Below are positions 50,981-57,783 of a DNA stretch of 64,000 nt, in pieces. The stretch covers positions 248,001 through 312,000 of the forward strand of contig NZ_CP144125.1 of NCBI RefSeq assembly GCF_036429475.1, read 5' to 3'. Source of the stretch: Halalkalicoccus sp. CGA53 (lineage in GTDB: Archaea; Halobacteriota; Halobacteria; Halobacteriales; Halalkalicoccaceae). The translations under genes were made by a program, and so were the position numbers. A model generated the notes under the pieces. The model made no database searches. It saw nothing but the letters and a program-made list of their open reading frames with translations, and had not been told where the DNA came from. Position 1 is the stretch's first letter, and each line of letters starts with the position of its first letter.

Positions 50981-51133
50981 TTAGACCTCCGGTCGCATCG
51001 CCTGTGGCGGCGAGTCTGCGTTCGTTTCGTTCTCCGTTCGGTTCCGCGAGTGCCGTTCGATCTCTCTCATGGTCGTATCCCCATCGATCCGCGCTCCGTG
51101 TTCGGTCGGGGTTGTCCCGCTCTGTCGGCTCAT
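50981..51133 (-). CDS. 50-aa peptide in the lipoprotein 1 unit
   Basis: Fifty codons, starting MSRQSGTTPTEHGARIDGDT and ending SPPQAMRPEV. Its ATG overlaps the lipoprotein 1 stop (ATGA, 51130-51133), and its stop is two bases before the start of the multipass protein gene, so it fits exactly in the operon. It is hydrophilic with no helix long enough to cross a membrane. Function unknown; it may serve as a coupling peptide or a small partner of the membrane complex. Confidence 0.6.
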   Translation of the reverse strand: MSRQSGTTPTEHGARIDGDTTMREIERHSRNRTENETNADSPPQAMRPEV

Positions 51134-51993
51134 GCTCCCCACCGATCCATCCATCCCTCGTCCGCGCGTGCCCCGAACTCGAACGCCGTCCCTGCCGGTA
51201 TCTTGGACTGTCCGGGGTCGTCGATCGTGCCGGTCGCCGTGAGGACGCCTGAGCGGTCGATCCGCAGGAACGGCTCCTCTCCGTAGGTCGTTATCGGCGA
51301 GTCGCGCTCCTCCGCGGAGCCGTCAGCGGCCTCGCGGTAGACGTACTTCATCATCTCCGTCAGGCCGGGCCACCAGATCTCGACCTCGTCGGAGTTCACG
51401 TAGCGGAAATCGTTTCCGGACCACCCGACCATCCGCCGGAAGAACCGGACGTTGTAGCCGTCCTCCTCGAGACCGTGCTCTTCCTTGCTCTCATCGGTCA
51501 CCTGGAAGATCCCGTCCATGAGGAAGTAGACCCCATCCCCCTCGAACTCGTCCGCCTCCCGGACGATGTCGTATATCTCCTCTCTCGGCCCACCGCTGAA
51601 GTCGCCGTCCATCTCGTACCGGTCGTCACCGAGGACGAGGACTGCCCGTCCCGGTTCGTCCGGGACCTCGACATCCGGGTGGTCGTCGTTCCAGGCGTCA
51701 TCGGGTTCGAGGTCCAACTCGGACGGACGGAGGCCGGGGGCGTCACCCTCGGTATTCTCCGTGTCGTCCTCGATGCCGTCGTCTTCCATCCCCTCGTCAG
51801 GGGTGTCTCCCGAGTCGTCCGCAGTCTCTTCGGCGTCGTCCGCGTCGGCCGACTCCTGTGTTTCGGCCTCCGCGTCCTCGCCACCCAGACAGCCGGCGAG
51901 ACCGACGACGCCCAGACCGCTCACGCTCGAGAGAACCGTCCGTCGGTTCACCCCCCTGGGTCCGGCCGCGGGATCGTGGTTTAATGATCTCAT
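51130..51993 (-). CDS. Tat lipoprotein 1 of the TCACGSCGTGA regulon
   Basis: 287 aa. Twin arginine (NRRTVLSSVSGLG) and lipobox LAGC give a lipidated Cys near residue 35, then an acidic spacer to about residue 85. The mature domain has strands around RAVLVLGDDRYEMDGDFSGG and FEGDGVYFLMDGIFQVT, with a Trp-rich segment VEIWWPGLTEMMKYVY. I do not recognise the fold. First gene of a four-gene unit. The ATG at 51993 is 28 nt from the conserved promoter box (52022-52036). Confidence 0.8.
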   Translation of the reverse strand: MRSLNHDPAAGPRGVNRRTVLSSVSGLGVVGLAGCLGGEDAEAETQESADADDAEETADDSGDTPDEGMEDDGIEDDTENTEGDAPGLRPSELDLEPDDAWNDDHPDVEVPDEPGRAVLVLGDDRYEMDGDFSGGPREEIYDIVREADEFEGDGVYFLMDGIFQVTDESKEEHGLEEDGYNVRFFRRMVGWSGNDFRYVNSDEVEIWWPGLTEMMKYVYREAADGSAEERDSPITTYGEEPFLRIDRSGVLTATGTIDDPGQSKIPAGTAFEFGARADEGWMDRWGA

Positions 51994-52068: not shown

Positions 52069-52079
52069 TCACGCCGTGA
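52069..52079. promoter_or_regulatory. TCACGCCGTGA palindrome, site 1
   Basis: In context TTTCACGCCGTGAGA. It lies 32 nt upstream of the lipoprotein 1 promoter box and matches the shared operator consensus TCTCACGCCGTGAGA at 13 of 15 or more positions. Confidence 0.65.
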
Positions 52080-52148
52080 GACCGTTCCGCGTCGTGAGCG
52101 CTCCATCGGGGCCTCGGTTCGGTCGACCGGCCCGTCGGCCGATCCGGC

Positions 52149-52889
52149 TCACGCGCAGGTGATGGCGACCCACGTCTCGCCGTAGTCCACACCCCCCTGA
52201 TCCGAGAGGTCGAACCCGATGCCACCGTACCAGGTCTCGGCCTCCCTGACGACGAACGCGGACCGACCCTCGGCACCCTCTTCGGGTTTGATGGGGCGAA
52301 TGCTCCGAGGGACTGCGGCCTCCTCGAACTGACTCTCCTCGTCGGGGTTCGGTACGGTGAGGGTTATGGTGTTCTGGAGGTCGTCGAGGTCGTCGCCCCT
52401 GCTCAGTTCGACCCCGGACGCCTCGCCGTCGTCGAACTCGAAGACGCCCTCTGCGGTCCCTCTCTCCGGGTCGTCGGGGTCGGCACTGTCCGCACCACAC
52501 TCGATCTCCTCGGTCTGGTACTCGCCCTCGTTTTCGAACACCACGACGCCGGTGCCCGGGTCGGGAGCCGAGAGGTTCGCCATGGCGTTCTCCAGTTCCT
52601 CGCGGAGATACGGGTCCTCGTCACCGCCGTTCGCGTCGTCGGTGTCTCCGTCGTCCGCTTCGGGGTCGTCAGTGTCCTCGCCCGCCACTTCGGAGTCGTC
52701 GGAGTCCCCGTCGTCTGCGTCAGTACTGCCGGAATCGTCCTCGCTATCGCTGTCTACACCGTCCTCGTCGTCGTTACCGAGACAGCCTGCGAGCCCTGCG
52801 AGACTCACACCTCCCATAGCCCGCAGAACTGTCCGTCGTTCGATTCGGTTCTCCACTCCGGCCAGCCGACCGAGGTCATCTCCCTTCAT
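52149..52889 (-). CDS. Tat lipoprotein 2 of the TCACGSCGTGA regulon
   Basis: 246 aa. The Tat signal is ERRTVLRAMGGVSLAG with lipobox LAGC; the next ~55 residues are almost all Asp, Glu, Ser and Gly (low complexity). The folded part begins near residue 92 (PYLREELENAMANLSAP) and ends with a CGGIGF-like strand and ETWVAITCA; two Cys residues (ECGADS and the last ITCA) might pair. Not homologous by eye to lipoproteins 1 or 3. It has its own promoter box and palindrome and is divergent from regulator 1. Confidence 0.78.
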   Translation of the reverse strand: MKGDDLGRLAGVENRIERRTVLRAMGGVSLAGLAGCLGNDDEDGVDSDSEDDSGSTDADDGDSDDSEVAGEDTDDPEADDGDTDDANGGDEDPYLREELENAMANLSAPDPGTGVVVFENEGEYQTEEIECGADSADPDDPERGTAEGVFEFDDGEASGVELSRGDDLDDLQNTITLTVPNPDEESQFEEAAVPRSIRPIKPEEGAEGRSAFVVREAETWYGGIGFDLSDQGGVDYGETWVAITCA

Positions 52890-52930
52890 CTCTTCACTCT
52901 TCTCCTCTTCTCACTTCTTCGAGAGGTCGG

Positions 52931-52945
52931 GTATCTAACTGCACC
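52931..52945 (-). promoter_or_regulatory. promoter box of lipoprotein 2
   Basis: On the minus strand GGTGCAGTTAGATAC, 31 nt downstream of palindrome site 2a and 41 nt before the ATG at 52889. Confidence 0.6.
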
Positions 52946-52976
52946 CGGTGAGGGTATACGACGGCGTAAGGGCGGC

Positions 52977-52987
52977 TCACGCCGTGA
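52977..52987. promoter_or_regulatory. TCACGCCGTGA palindrome, site 2a
   Basis: In context GCTCACGCCGTGATA, between the divergent lipoprotein 2 and regulator 1 genes. A second site follows 18 bp away centre to centre, which is close to two helical turns. Confidence 0.65.
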
Positions 52988-52992
52988 TAGCA

Positions 52993-53007
52993 TCTCGCGG
53001 CGTGAGA
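52993..53007. promoter_or_regulatory. palindrome site 2b (one mismatch)
   Basis: TCTCGCGGCGTGAGA differs from TCTCACGGCGTGAGA at one base. It forms a pair with site 2a in the same divergent promoter region. Confidence 0.5.
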
Positions 53008-53179
53008 GTCACGCTCAAGACCAGCGATCTCCACCCACGAGACCCACCCGGACGCGAGCTTCCACCACCTGAACACATATATCACGGACCGTCGTACGTA
53101 TCAGTCCAGTGTGGGATCCTGAATCTCCCACGGTTCGGGATCGGAGGACGGCGGCGAATCCCACGACGAGGTACCGATA

Positions 53180-54130
53180 ATGAAGGACGAAGGAGCGTTC
53201 GACGGGATCGAACCGGGCGGAGTGACGCCCACGGAGGCGTTCTCGATCCTCGGCAACGGGACCCGCGTCGCGATCCTCCAGGCGCTCTGGGAGGGCGAGG
53301 AGCCGATGAGCTTCTCCGACCTCCGGGAGGCCGTCGGCGTCGACAAGGGGAACTTCAACTACCATCTGAACGAGCTATCGCACTTCGTTCGCCGGAGGGA
53401 GGGGGGCTACGAACTCAGGGAGACCGGAAACCAGGTGATCCGCGCCGTTCTCACGGGTGTGATCACCGACGTCCCCGAACTGGACCCCGTTCCGATCGGC
53501 CGGCCCTGTCCGTTCTGTGACTCGCCGATCGAACTCCGCTACGAGGACGAGACGATGATGGCGAGCTGTGAGAGCTGTGCGGGGACCAGCGGCGGGGACC
53601 TCCCACGCGGCGTGTTCATGAGCATCGACGGCTTTCCGCCCGCGGGGCTCGCGGGTCGGTCGCTCCCGGAGGTGCTGGAGGTCGCGCACCTGCTCTTCGA
53701 GGCGAGCGCCGCGACGATGGTACAGGGCGTCTGCCCGGAGTGTGCCGTGGAGACCGACACCGAGATACTCGTCTGCGAGGAGCACGCGATCGGCCCCGAC
53801 GGGCTCTGTGAGTCCTGCGGTCGCGTCCCGGAGCTGCTGGTCGAGTTCACCTGCCCGAACTGTGAGACCGCCTCCCGGCCCGTGCTCTGGATGCCCGCGA
53901 TCTACCACCCGGCGGCGATCGCCCTCTTCTACGAGCGCTGGGGGTTCGACACCTTCCGGGAGCTGCAGCGGCTGTTCTTCACGAACCCCGAGTACGTCGA
54001 GGCGATCTCCGAAGAGGTCGTCTCGACCGATCCCCTGCGCGTTCGCGTCGAGTTCCCGGCCGAGACGGGACGGCTCGGGCTGACGTTCGACGAGGGGTTC
54101 GACGTCGTCGAGATCGAGCGACCGGGCTAG
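53180..54130 (+). CDS. winged-helix / zinc-ribbon regulator 1
   Basis: 316 aa. Residues 20-85 are an ArsR-like winged helix (FSILGNGTRVAILQALWEG, then the recognition region VDKGNFNYHLNEL). Downstream come several zinc-binding Cys pairs: CPFC, CESC, CPEC, CESCG and CPNC, then a C-terminal domain (AIYHPAAIALFYERWGFDTF). The family is common in haloarchaea without known ligand. The first 65 domain residues are encoded by DNA identical over 191 bp to regulator 2. A TATA-like ACATATATC (53075-53083) leaves a ~95-nt leader. Confidence 0.86.
   Translation: MKDEGAFDGIEPGGVTPTEAFSILGNGTRVAILQALWEGEEPMSFSDLREAVGVDKGNFNYHLNELSHFVRRREGGYELRETGNQVIRAVLTGVITDVPELDPVPIGRPCPFCDSPIELRYEDETMMASCESCAGTSGGDLPRGVFMSIDGFPPAGLAGRSLPEVLEVAHLLFEASAATMVQGVCPECAVETDTEILVCEEHAIGPDGLCESCGRVPELLVEFTCPNCETASRPVLWMPAIYHPAAIALFYERWGFDTFRELQRLFFTNPEYVEAISEEVVSTDPLRVRVEFPAETGRLGLTFDEGFDVVEIERPG
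53234..53424 (+). repeat. 191-bp perfect repeat, copy in regulator 1
   Basis: Identical base for base to 55821-56011. It covers almost exactly the winged-helix DNA-binding segment. Sequence diverges abruptly on both sides (amino-acid identity of the C-terminal parts is roughly half by eye), which suggests recent gene conversion. Confidence 0.9.
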
Positions 54131-54199
54131 GCGCTCACTCCGACCGTCTCCCCCGCCGGAGATTACCCGGATCTCGCGGCGGAGTGTCTCATATCGATC

Positions 54200-54643
54200 T
54201 CAGACGTAGTTCTTCGCCATATCGCCGGTGACCGGCAGGCCGTCCCTGTCGCCCTTGTACGCCTTGTACGTCAGCACGAGCCAGAGCACGAAGGCGACCG
54301 GCATCAACAGCAGCGACACCAGTCCCGTCAGGAGCGCGAAGAGTAGGCCCACGACCGGGATCACGTCGAGGACGAACCCGAAGACGAACAGCCCCATCGA
54401 GAGCGCGATCATCCCTCCGAAGATGATGATGCTCTGGACCGCGTGGAACCGGACGAACTCGTTGTCCTCCTCGATGAAGTAGAAGACGATGGCGAGCAGG
54501 GGCGGGAAGAGATACGCGAGCGCACCCACGATGTTCTCGTCCAGCCCGCCGACGGAGGTCGGCGTCTCGTCGCCCGTCGCCGGCTCGGTCTCGATTCGAT
54601 CGTTGCTCAGTTCCGCTTCGACGTCCGCGTCTTTCGTACTCAT
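54200..54643 (-). CDS. DUF4870 (Tic20-like) membrane protein
   Basis: 147 aa. An acidic N-terminal tail (about 35 residues) precedes three to four helices: NIVGALAYLFPPLLAIVFYF, EFVRFHAVQSIIIFGGMIAL and the glycine-rich VIPVVGLLFALLTGL. FVRFHAVQS is the DUF4870 hallmark. Family function unknown, often near surface or stress genes. It starts 22 bp after the lipoprotein 3 stop and is probably co-transcribed with it. Confidence 0.88.
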   Translation of the reverse strand: MSTKDADVEAELSNDRIETEPATGDETPTSVGGLDENIVGALAYLFPPLLAIVFYFIEEDNEFVRFHAVQSIIIFGGMIALSMGLFVFGFVLDVIPVVGLLFALLTGLVSLLLMPVAFVLWLVLTYKAYKGDRDGLPVTGDMAKNYV

Positions 54644-54664
54644 GATTGTATCCGTGTGGTCTCT

Positions 54665-55471
54665 CTAGTCTCGTTCGTATCCAACCAGTTCCATCTCGAA
54701 TGCGACCTCGCCGGTCTCCTCGTAGTAGGCCACGTAGGCCGGGAAGGCGAGGTCGGGCGAGAGGCAGCTCTCGTGGACGACCTGTTCGTCTACCTCGGTG
54801 ACGGCCACGTAACACTCCGTGCCGACGTAGGTTTCGGTCCCGTCGACGGCGTACCGAAAACTCCCCTCGGAGGTGCTGTAGCTCCACTCGTAACCGACGT
54901 ACGCCTCGTCCTCGTAGGCCCCGACGTGTGGCGAGTAGAGCCCGGACCAGAGGAACACCGCCGCGGGCGTCACCATCAGGTCCGAGAAGACGTCGTCCTC
55001 GGTGCCGGTCACCGTCTGCGAGAAGCCCTCGCCGTTCTCGAACTCCATCGACGTCTCGACGGTCAGCAGCTCGCCGTCGACCTCCTCGACGCTCCAGAGG
55101 AACGTTCCGGGGCCGTCCTCGGCGGTGTGAACGCGGTACTCGTAGCGTTCACCCGCCTCGAACTCGTAGAGGCGCCACTCCTCCTCGCTCCCCCCGTCGG
55201 GTGCGTCCTCGGGGGGGTCACCTTCGCTCGCGGCCGCCGACCCGTCCCCGCCCGGTGGGCTCTCCGCGTCGGCCAGGTCGGCGATCGACTCGACCTGCTC
55301 CGGATCGAGGCCGACCCCGTCCGCGACCTCGTCGAGGCCCACACAGCCAGCGAGCATGCCGACCCCACCGAAGAGGACCAGCGCGCCGCGCCGACTCGTC
55401 GTCCACGTCTTCCTCCGCGTCGCTCCGGGTTTCAACCCCAGCTCCGTCCGTGTCATCGCGTCTCCTTTCAT
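54665..55471 (-). CDS. Tat lipoprotein 3 of the TCACGSCGTGA regulon
   Basis: 268 aa. Twin arginine (TTSRRGALVLFGGVGM) and lipobox LAGC put the Cys near residue 43. A spacer rich in Gly, Asp and Pro leads to a beta-rich domain with YEYRVHTAEDGPGTFLW, ETSMEFENGEGFSQTV and two Cys residues (GTECYVAV, ESCLSP) that may pair. An in-frame ATG at 55456 is an alternative start. It has the conserved promoter box, but with a longer leader (72 nt). Divergent from regulator 2. Confidence 0.8.
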   Translation of the reverse strand: MKGDAMTRTELGLKPGATRRKTWTTSRRGALVLFGGVGMLAGCVGLDEVADGVGLDPEQVESIADLADAESPPGGDGSAAASEGDPPEDAPDGGSEEEWRLYEFEAGERYEYRVHTAEDGPGTFLWSVEEVDGELLTVETSMEFENGEGFSQTVTGTEDDVFSDLMVTPAAVFLWSGLYSPHVGAYEDEAYVGYEWSYSTSEGSFRYAVDGTETYVGTECYVAVTEVDEQVVHESCLSPDLAFPAYVAYYEETGEVAFEMELVGYERD

Positions 55472-55543
55472 ATCGGTGGAATGATACACCGACGTCCTGT
55501 CATGTCGGGTGTGTGTCCTCCTCACTCTCGGTGGTGAGTCACG

Positions 55544-55558
55544 GACCCTAAACGCACC
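55544..55558 (-). promoter_or_regulatory. promoter box of lipoprotein 3
   Basis: On the minus strand GGTGCGTTTAGGGTC, 31 nt downstream of palindrome site 3. Third member of the conserved box set. Confidence 0.6.
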
Positions 55559-55589
55559 TACCAAGACGGTTTCGCCCCGCGAATTCCTC

Positions 55590-55600
55590 TCACGCCGTGA
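55590..55600. promoter_or_regulatory. TCACGCCGTGA palindrome, site 3
   Basis: In context TCTCACGCCGTGAAA, between divergent lipoprotein 3 and regulator 2. The right flank (AACCCGTTCG) resembles that of sites 1 and 4 (GACCGTTCC, GACCCGCTCG). Confidence 0.65.
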
Positions 55601-55766
55601 AACCCGTTCGTCCCCTCCGGAGCGCCCCGTCGTGTGTAGAAGTACCGAACCACAAGAGATATTCACGCAGAGAACGTGTCACAAATCAGGTCATCCGAAT
55701 CCGACGCAAAGGGCGGCTGTCAGCTCCGACGTATCGGCTTCGGTGGTATGTAGAGGGAACGATCAC

Positions 55767-56714
55767 ATGGAGGAACCGGAGGCCGTCGGACGCATCGAGC
55801 CGGGCGGGGTGAGTCCGACCGAGGCGTTCTCGATCCTCGGCAACGGGACCCGCGTCGCGATCCTCCAGGCGCTCTGGGAGGGCGAGGAGCCGATGAGCTT
55901 CTCCGACCTCCGGGAGGCCGTCGGCGTCGACAAGGGGAACTTCAACTACCATCTGAACGAGCTATCGCACTTCGTTCGCCGGAGGGAGGGGGGCTACGAA
56001 CTCAGGGAGACGGGGACGCAGGTGATGCGTGCGGTCGTCGCCGGGACGATCACCGAGGACCCCGAACTCGGCCCCGTGAAGGCCGGCCACCCCTGCCCGT
56101 TCTGTGGCTCGTCGGTCGAGTTGCTGTACAGAAACGAACACATCACCGTCCGCTGTCGGGACTGTGCGGGCGTCCTCGGCGGAGACCTCCCCGACGGCGC
56201 GTTCATGCACTACGCCTTCCCGCCGGCGGGCCTCGCGGATCGGTCGCTCCCGGAGGTGGTCGAGGCTGCCCACGTCCTCTTCGAGGCGCACGTCGCGACG
56301 ATGATGCAGGGGGTCTGTCCGGCCTGCACGGCACGGACCGAACGGGAGGTGCTCGTCTGCGAGGACCACCAGATCGGGGCCGAGGGCGTCTGTGAGTGCT
56401 GTGGCTCGGTCCCGCGGATCTGGGCGACGTTCACCTGTCGAAACTGCCGGTACGGACGCCGGGCGATGCTCTGGCTGGTCGCCGTCTACCACCCGGCGGC
56501 GATCACGGCGCTCTCCGAACGCTGGGAGTTCGATACGTTCCTCGAGCTCCAGCGACTGCTCTTTTCGAACCCGGACTACCTCGCGAGCGTCTCCGAGCGG
56601 GTGGTCTCGACCGACCCGCTCAGGCTCCGGGTCGACCTCCCCACCGACTCCGGGGCGCTCTCGCTCCGATACGACGAACACCTCCAAGTCCTCGACGTGA
56701 CGCGAGAGGGGTGA
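55767..56714 (+). CDS. winged-helix / zinc-ribbon regulator 2
   Basis: 315 aa paralogue of regulator 1 with the same order: winged helix (residues 18-82), then Cys pairs CPFC, CRDC, CPAC, CECCG and CRNC, and a C-terminal domain (AVYHPAAITALSERWEFDTF). The two proteins are nearly identical in the DNA-binding part and clearly divergent elsewhere, so they should read the same operator but different signals. A TATA-like AGATATTC (55657-55664) leaves a ~105-nt leader. Operator site 4 follows its stop codon directly. Confidence 0.86.
   Translation: MEEPEAVGRIEPGGVSPTEAFSILGNGTRVAILQALWEGEEPMSFSDLREAVGVDKGNFNYHLNELSHFVRRREGGYELRETGTQVMRAVVAGTITEDPELGPVKAGHPCPFCGSSVELLYRNEHITVRCRDCAGVLGGDLPDGAFMHYAFPPAGLADRSLPEVVEAAHVLFEAHVATMMQGVCPACTARTEREVLVCEDHQIGAEGVCECCGSVPRIWATFTCRNCRYGRRAMLWLVAVYHPAAITALSERWEFDTFLELQRLLFSNPDYLASVSERVVSTDPLRLRVDLPTDSGALSLRYDEHLQVLDVTREG
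55821..56011 (+). repeat. 191-bp perfect repeat, copy in regulator 2
   Basis: Identical to 53234-53424 over the full length, at an offset of 2587 bp. The first differences are immediate on each side (acg/acc before, cgg/ggg after). Confidence 0.9.
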
Positions 56715-56716
56715 TC

Positions 56717-56727
56717 TCACGGCGTGA
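56717..56727. promoter_or_regulatory. TCACGGCGTGA palindrome, site 4
   Basis: In context TCTCACGGCGTGAGA, a symmetric 15-mer apart from its centre, starting three bases after the regulator 2 stop. It has no promoter box at 31 nt on either side; it may control regulator 3 from a distance. Confidence 0.55.
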
Positions 56728-56833
56728 GACCCGCTCGCCGCGCGAACCGCGCTCACGGGAAACCGCTTTGCCACCTGGCGTGAACAACGGTGATGCGGGA
56801 GAGCGCGAGGACGCGGGCCACGCGTACGTGTCA

Positions 56834-56895: not shown

Positions 56896-57783
56896 ATGGG
56901 ACGAGGTAGTTCTCCGGATTCTGGAGGGAGGGAGGGTGCACTGGAGGACGTGGCGTTCCTCGCGCGCTCGTCGAACCGGCTCGCGCTCCTCCGCATGCTC
57001 GGCGAAGGGCCACACGACAGACGCGAACTCCGGGAGACGACCTCGATGAGCGCGCCGACGCTCGCACGTATCCTCGGTGAGTTCGAGGATCACGGCTGGA
57101 TCGAACGCGATGGGGGGTCCTACCGCGCCACGACCGCCGGCAGGCTCGTCGCGGGTGGTGTGCTCGCGGCGGTCGACCGTGCCGACGCGGTCCGCCGGCT
57201 TCGCCCGCTGTTGCGAGCGGTTCCGACGGACGGGCCAGAACTGGACGTCGAGGCGCTTTCGAACGCTCGGGTCACGGTCGCCGAGCCCAGTTCGCCGCTC
57301 GGACCTGCGAACCGGTTCGCCTCGCTCACGAGGGAGAGCGAGACGCTTCGCGAGTTCAACGCGGCGTCGGTCCAGTTCTTCGACGCAAGCGTGCTCCGAA
57401 CCCGCGTCGAGGAGGGGCGACGGACGGAGCTGCTCTACGAGCGCGGCGTCGTCGAGGCGCTGCTCTCCGACCATCCGGAGCTCTTGGCCGCGCTGATCGA
57501 CAGCCCAGCGGTCGAGGTCTCGCTCCGGGAGTCGGTCCCGTTCGGGCTCTCGCTGTTCGACGACCGGATCGGGGTGTGCGGCTACGACCGCGAGAGCGGG
57601 GCACTCACCGTCTTCGTCGACACCGACGACTACGAGGCGAGACGGTGGGCCGAGCGCCTCTACGAGAGCGTTCGATCCGAGGCGATGCCGATCACGAACC
57701 CCGACCCCACGGCGATCGAGCCCTCCCCGACGCGACCGCCCGAGACGCCCGTCGAGTTCGGACCCGTGCCGCTCGACCGCTGA
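56896..57783 (+). CDS. winged-helix regulator 3 (FilR1-domain type)
   Basis: 295 aa. An N-terminal winged helix (SSNRLALLRMLGEGPHDRRELRE, then SAPTLARILGEFEDHGWIE) is followed by a C-terminal domain with LLYERGVVEALLSDHPELL and VPFGLSLFDDRIGVCGYD, the pattern of FilR1/DUF1724-type regulators common in haloarchaea. It is unrelated to regulators 1 and 2 beyond the wHTH. A TATA box about 28 nt before the ATG suggests a leaderless transcript. It lies next to operator site 4. Confidence 0.85.
   Translation: MGRGSSPDSGGREGALEDVAFLARSSNRLALLRMLGEGPHDRRELRETTSMSAPTLARILGEFEDHGWIERDGGSYRATTAGRLVAGGVLAAVDRADAVRRLRPLLRAVPTDGPELDVEALSNARVTVAEPSSPLGPANRFASLTRESETLREFNAASVQFFDASVLRTRVEEGRRTELLYERGVVEALLSDHPELLAALIDSPAVEVSLRESVPFGLSLFDDRIGVCGYDRESGALTVFVDTDDYEARRWAERLYESVRSEAMPITNPDPTAIEPSPTRPPETPVEFGPVPLDR

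Follow-up and report, generated by a model that had tools for sequence, protein, structure and literature searches.

Evidence for recurrent gene conversion of the winged helix in tandem haloarchaeal regulators with a candidate common operator

Two regulators with an identical winged-helix tract

We analysed a 64,000-nucleotide stretch of DNA (the window) from a haloarchaeal genome of 4.04 Mb assembled in 2 contigs. The locus studied here carries two tandem regulator genes, A and B, among genes for Tat-signal lipoproteins, with the following genes and tracts.

51130..51993, minus strand: Tat-signal lipoprotein gene 1; no family; likely target
52149..52889, minus strand: Tat-signal lipoprotein gene 2, divergent from A; likely target
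53180..54130, plus strand: regulator A, 316 aa; DUF7347 winged helix and DUF7351 C-terminal domain; favoured as conversion recipient
53234..53424, plus strand: tract in A, 191 bp, identical to B; very probably converted
54200..54643, minus strand: small membrane protein, downstream of lipoprotein gene 3; weak DUF4870-like match
54665..55471, minus strand: Tat-signal lipoprotein gene 3, divergent from B; likely target, with 55471 or 55456 as its start
55767..56714, plus strand: regulator B, 315 aa; architecture as in A; likely donor
55821..56011, plus strand: tract in B, 191 bp, identical to A; likely source
56896..57783, plus strand: HVO_A0261_N and FilR1_middle regulator (FilR1-like); rival candidate binder of the palindrome described below

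A and B belong to the haloarchaeal DUF7347–DUF7351 regulators, which have an ArsR/HTH_20-like winged helix. Both Pfam domains score above the gathering score and cover most of each protein (PF24038, E 3.7e-27 in A and 3.6e-27 in B; PF24042, E 3.5e-32 and 5.7e-34). The DUF7351 domain of A is a predicted sensor with CxxC pairs. Against the ArsR/SmtB metalloregulator model NF033788, the two proteins score 24.5–25.2 bits, below the curated cut-off of 55. In the PDB, Foldseek returned no full-length match that was confident. With E above 0.001, the winged helix is similar to that of BigR, NolR and other ArsR/MarR-type regulators.

Consistent with the original prediction, 53234–53424 and 55821–56011 match at every base, and the identity extends no further than these 191 bp, which comprise codons 19–82. 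An AlphaFold model (mean pLDDT 79.8, about 86–90 over most of the winged helix) places helices at residues 17–24, 27–38, 45–52 and 56–65, wing strands at 70–73 and 76–79, and then a helix at 81–91. On this model, the tract begins with the first helix, takes in everything up to the second wing strand and stops within the first turn of helix 81–91, which agrees with the claim that it covers the winged helix almost exactly. Outside the tract the genes are far diverged, as had also been stated: coding identity is 0.65 in the 5' 54 nt and 0.69 in the rest, amino-acid identity is 56–58%, and dS, which is 0 in the tract, is about 0.6 in the rest and 1.7–1.9 in the 5' part. A genome search for a third close copy, which could have served as a donor, found none, the next best match being 71%.

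Gene conversion between A and B

For comparison we used two MAGs of the same genus, labelled Halococcaceae: MAG 185 (contig SKWB01000117.1) and MAG 235 (SKXI01000452.1). Both keep an A-locus and a B-locus gene (185A and 185B in MAG 185; the B-locus gene of MAG 235 is 235B; the window's own genes are winA and winB). The intergenic regions of the A locus align over their full length across the three genomes, as do those of the B locus, so the positional orthology of the two loci is secure. The MAG 185 orthologue of A is 89% identical, and the B orthologues in both MAGs are 84–86% identical. A sister genus has no close homologue of A or B (none at E <= 1e-40).

We found that the tract and the remainder of the genes have different histories. 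Among these six genes, the 191-bp run spans 57 consecutive polymorphic sites, against a longest run of 24 in 20,000 site permutations (p < 5e-5). Outside the tract, dS is 0.23 for winA–185A and 0.44 for winB–185B. Inside it, winA is more distant from 185A (dS 0.46) than from 185B (0.24), and winB–235B has a dS of 0.48. At sites that split 185A from 185B, winA matches A over B by 173:32 outside the tract but by 8:17 inside it (p = 9e-8). By contrast, winB shows no significant switch at the same sites (37:163 outside, 8:17 inside; p = 0.12). The tree of the rest of the genes groups winA with 185A (support 100/100) and winB with 185B and 235B (100/99), and rejects the joining of winA and winB (p-AU 2e-62). 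The tract groups by genome and its flanks by gene. The tree of the tract, a short one, has poor resolution, with a p-AU of 0.08 against joining winA, winB and 185B.

These results strongly support recent gene conversion as the cause of the A/B tract identity. Uniform duplication, which the original prediction had set aside on the contrast within one genome, is ruled out by the comparison with relatives, the dS contrast and the trees; aligned with their counterparts in MAGs 185 and 235, the paralogues do not show even divergence along the genes. Because winA switches from A-like to B-like in the tract and winB does not, the sequences favour a non-reciprocal transfer from B to A, a direction read from one close outgroup pair and the poorly resolved tract tree. 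At residue 27, both winA and winB carry an E-to-G change (GNGTR, compared with GNETR in the other four genes), which illustrates how a change in the winged helix can reach both regulators.

Homogenisation in other genomes

The A-locus protein of MAG 235 has an A-type promoter and N-terminus, and its sensor domain, 37% identical to that of 235B, falls outside the A+B clade, where pairing with 235B is rejected (p-AU 7e-4). Over codons 9–64 of this pair, 44/50 same-residue codons are identical, compared with 49/85 outside (p 2e-4, with borders chosen after looking); tested with the window's own tract borders, the pair gives p = 0.0016. The homogenisation here is independent and older, with different borders. 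In MAG 185 there is a trace over codons 9–34 (p 0.008, with borders likewise chosen after looking), which is not significant by permutation (p = 0.2). The homogenised stretches of the window, MAG 235 and MAG 185 all lie within the winged helix. Conversion recurs in more than one lineage, the MAG 185 trace being shorter and weaker.

The regulator at 1473–2423 of locus L017 is a mosaic of an A-type promoter and N-terminus, a B-like winged helix and a sensor outside the A+B clade.

We also looked at other tandem DUF7347 pairs. In one from another genus (G237), the winged helices of the paralogues are 0.865 identical, compared with 0.845 and 0.816 to orthologues, with an unresolved tree; unlike the winged helix, the rest of the paralogues is not more alike than the orthologues. 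With the signal in one of the two species that have this unrelated pair (G237 and G331), the case is only suggestive. No conversion was found in Halosimplex (L020) or at two further places in the window's own genome (L106 and L107). The G237/G331 pair, a tandem of DUF7347–DUF7351 genes, is at L085 5335–7351 and L086 5595–7611. L107 6904–8323 (genome about 776900–778310) holds a short DUF7347-only ORF just 5' of a full DUF7347–DUF7351 gene.

A candidate operator next to both regulators

The intergenic regions of the locus contain a palindrome, TCACGSCGTGA, arranged in tandem with 18-bp centre spacing.

52069..52097, no strand: candidate operator upstream of lipoprotein gene 1
52977..53005, no strand: candidate operator between A and its divergent lipoprotein gene; tandem TCACGCCGTGA-N7-TCGCGGCGTGA, with a third, weaker copy at 52959
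55572..55600, no strand: candidate operator between B and its divergent lipoprotein gene; a perfect palindrome and a decayed one
56717..56745, no strand: candidate operator between B and the FilR1-like gene; palindrome and weak second copy

Across all 4.04 Mb, the exact 11-mer TCACG(C/G)CGTGA is found at only 9 sites, and a 4.7-kb interval (52069–56727) holds 4 of these. On its own this count is biased, because the motif was first spotted by eye at this locus; conservation in relatives is the independent check. With up to 3 mismatches allowed (<=3), the tandem arrangement has 7 matches in the genome, 5 of which fall at the locus (4 arrays, with two matches overlapping), and a reversed-motif control gave 0 matches. 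The array at 52977..53005 is retained by MAG 185 and partly by MAG 235, which has one perfect palindrome at A and a perfect tandem at B; the B-side candidate consists of two perfect palindromes in both MAGs. The same motif adjoins both regulators in all three genomes. In the sister genus, the tandem occurs 0–1 times per genome. The palindrome is absent upstream of about 40 more distant homologues; ones with the same recognition helix also lack it, which counts against a shared operator.

Three of the five exact copies elsewhere in the genome are in coding sequence. Another precedes an unlinked Tat-type lipoprotein gene, where the palindrome is accompanied by a decayed second copy (L129 4019, genome 3517818). 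The fifth has a FilR1-like regulator on one side and a nitroreductase-like gene on the other. The related palindrome at this place, TTTCACGCCGTGAAAGGGTTTCACGCGG (L126 3149–4100, genome 763230), sits directly 5' of a TATA-like box.

It had been proposed that conversion keeps both regulators on one operator. Independent backing for this comes from a rare tandem palindrome that adjoins both regulators in three genomes; as an operator it is a candidate, for which the FilR1-like regulator is a rival binder. On the sequence evidence, it is reasonably likely that A and B read it in common. Probable targets are the divergent lipoprotein genes beside A and B and, in addition, the regulators themselves.

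The lipoproteins have no match among the families searched, and the small membrane protein, conserved at 78–81% in the MAGs, has a DUF4870-like match (E 9.6e-4) below the gathering score. Comparing 52149–52889 in the window with L018 1977–2636 and L017 up to about 1203, we found that the lipoprotein gene divergent from A has a constant promoter and Tat signal in the three genomes and a variable mature part. For the body of the window's lipoprotein 2 (52149–52889), the 72% match is at another place in MAG 185. It seems that promoter and signal stay fixed while the lipoprotein bodies behind them are exchanged.

Alternative explanations

One possible explanation for the position of the tract is neutral: ectopic recombination would succeed only where the tandem paralogues are still alike, and the result would persist without special selection, whether or not an operator is shared. 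The event is common to this account and the explanation that we favour; the two differ in why it happened at this position. In 185A–185B, the least converted pair, identity is 0.85 in the winged helix against 0.70 outside it. The top values per 60 nt (0.77–0.95, compared with about 0.7 elsewhere) and the longest exact runs (28, 35 and 26 nt) all lie in or just before the tract, and haloarchaeal gene conversion is very efficient (PMC8223754). Since the winged helix was already the most alike part, no selection is needed to place the tract there, and homology alone could confine conversion to it. Of the proposal that conversion is limited to, or selected in, the DNA-binding part, the limitation is supported, whereas selection is no more than a possible reason, given this pre-existing similarity. 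However, other alike stretches show no conversion (about 0.82 near alignment nt 480–540 and 0.78–0.80 near 720–870), the shared, conserved palindrome offers a functional reason, and the 191-bp tract is notably short compared with Haloferax allelic tracts, usually > 600 bp (PMC8223754). The neutral account is a real possibility, somewhat short of probable.

A different alternative concerns the binder of the palindrome. The FilR1-like regulator (56896–57783) may bind it and control A, B and the lipoproteins, with A and B binding something else. MAG 185 has a site 5' of the counterpart of this gene, and MAG 235 has one at the equivalent position; the gene's orthologues (79–80% identical) are confined to the genus that has the motif; and another FilR1-like gene borders the unlinked copy described above. 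By contrast, the full tandem arrays adjoin A and B, and the FilR1-side copy is among the weaker ones; in MAG 185, A sits about 8 kb away and retains its array; and the genome has only 9 exact sites, against 36 FilR1-like candidates in a first look. We consider this alternative unlikely.

Repeat collapse during assembly could also have made the copies identical, but the assembly is near-finished, with 2 contigs, each copy has unique flanks, and an independent MAG shows homogenisation of the same domain without identity, which makes such an artefact very unlikely. Purifying selection or codon constraint on the winged helix, whose protein sequence is better conserved among homologues than any other part, is refuted by the orthologue comparison, because orthologous tracts gain synonymous changes normally (10–16% of bases differ, with synonymous divergence about as in the rest) and 60/60 same-residue codons are identical in winA–winB and in no other pair.

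Discussion

Taken as a whole, the best explanation is probably repeated conversion of the winged helix in regulators with two sensors, one candidate operator and a shared set of lipoproteins. A and B would be old tandem paralogues in which ectopic gene conversion overwrites the winged helix again and again and the DUF7351 domains drift apart. The most recent event in the window lineage would have copied codons 19–82 of B over A. If DUF7351 senses, as we infer, the two regulators would differ in what they sense and read the same tandem TCACGSCGTGA operator. Placed between each regulator and a divergent Tat-lipoprotein gene, that operator would let two signals act on one set of surface lipoproteins, and the converted domain may persist because the common operator is kept.

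Ectopic gene conversion and concerted evolution are already known in prokaryotes. In intragenomic concerted evolution of rRNA operons and tuf genes (PMC8223754; survey in PMC6053082), paralogues within a genome likewise resemble each other, over a few hundred bases, more closely than they resemble their orthologues; A and B differ in that one protein domain is homogenised while the other has diverged (37–58% amino-acid identity). The polyploid Haloferax volcanii, of the same organism class, undergoes intermolecular (allelic) conversion (PMC8223754, PMC11276520) and probably shares the recombination machinery. That process equalises chromosome copies, mostly in tracts > 600 bp, and converts whole diverged genes (PMC8223754), whereas the A/B event is ectopic, between paralogues and 191 bp long. 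In the open-access papers searched, we found no report in which paralogous prokaryotic regulators undergo repeated conversion confined to the DNA-binding domain; none of these papers names DUF7351 or gives a function for a DUF7347–DUF7351 member.

More tentatively, recurrent conversion of the DNA-binding module may act as a lock that holds both paralogues on one operator while their sensors diverge or are swapped, as in MAG 235, giving a two-input switch for one lipoprotein regulon. We regard this as possible rather than probable. The usual view is that regulators, once duplicated, either divide up their targets or disappear. Periodic re-copying of the DNA-binding domain, combined with divergence of the sensor, would be a route to new inputs on one regulon with target specificity kept, and the conserved operator candidate makes this idea directly testable in a haloarchaeal host.
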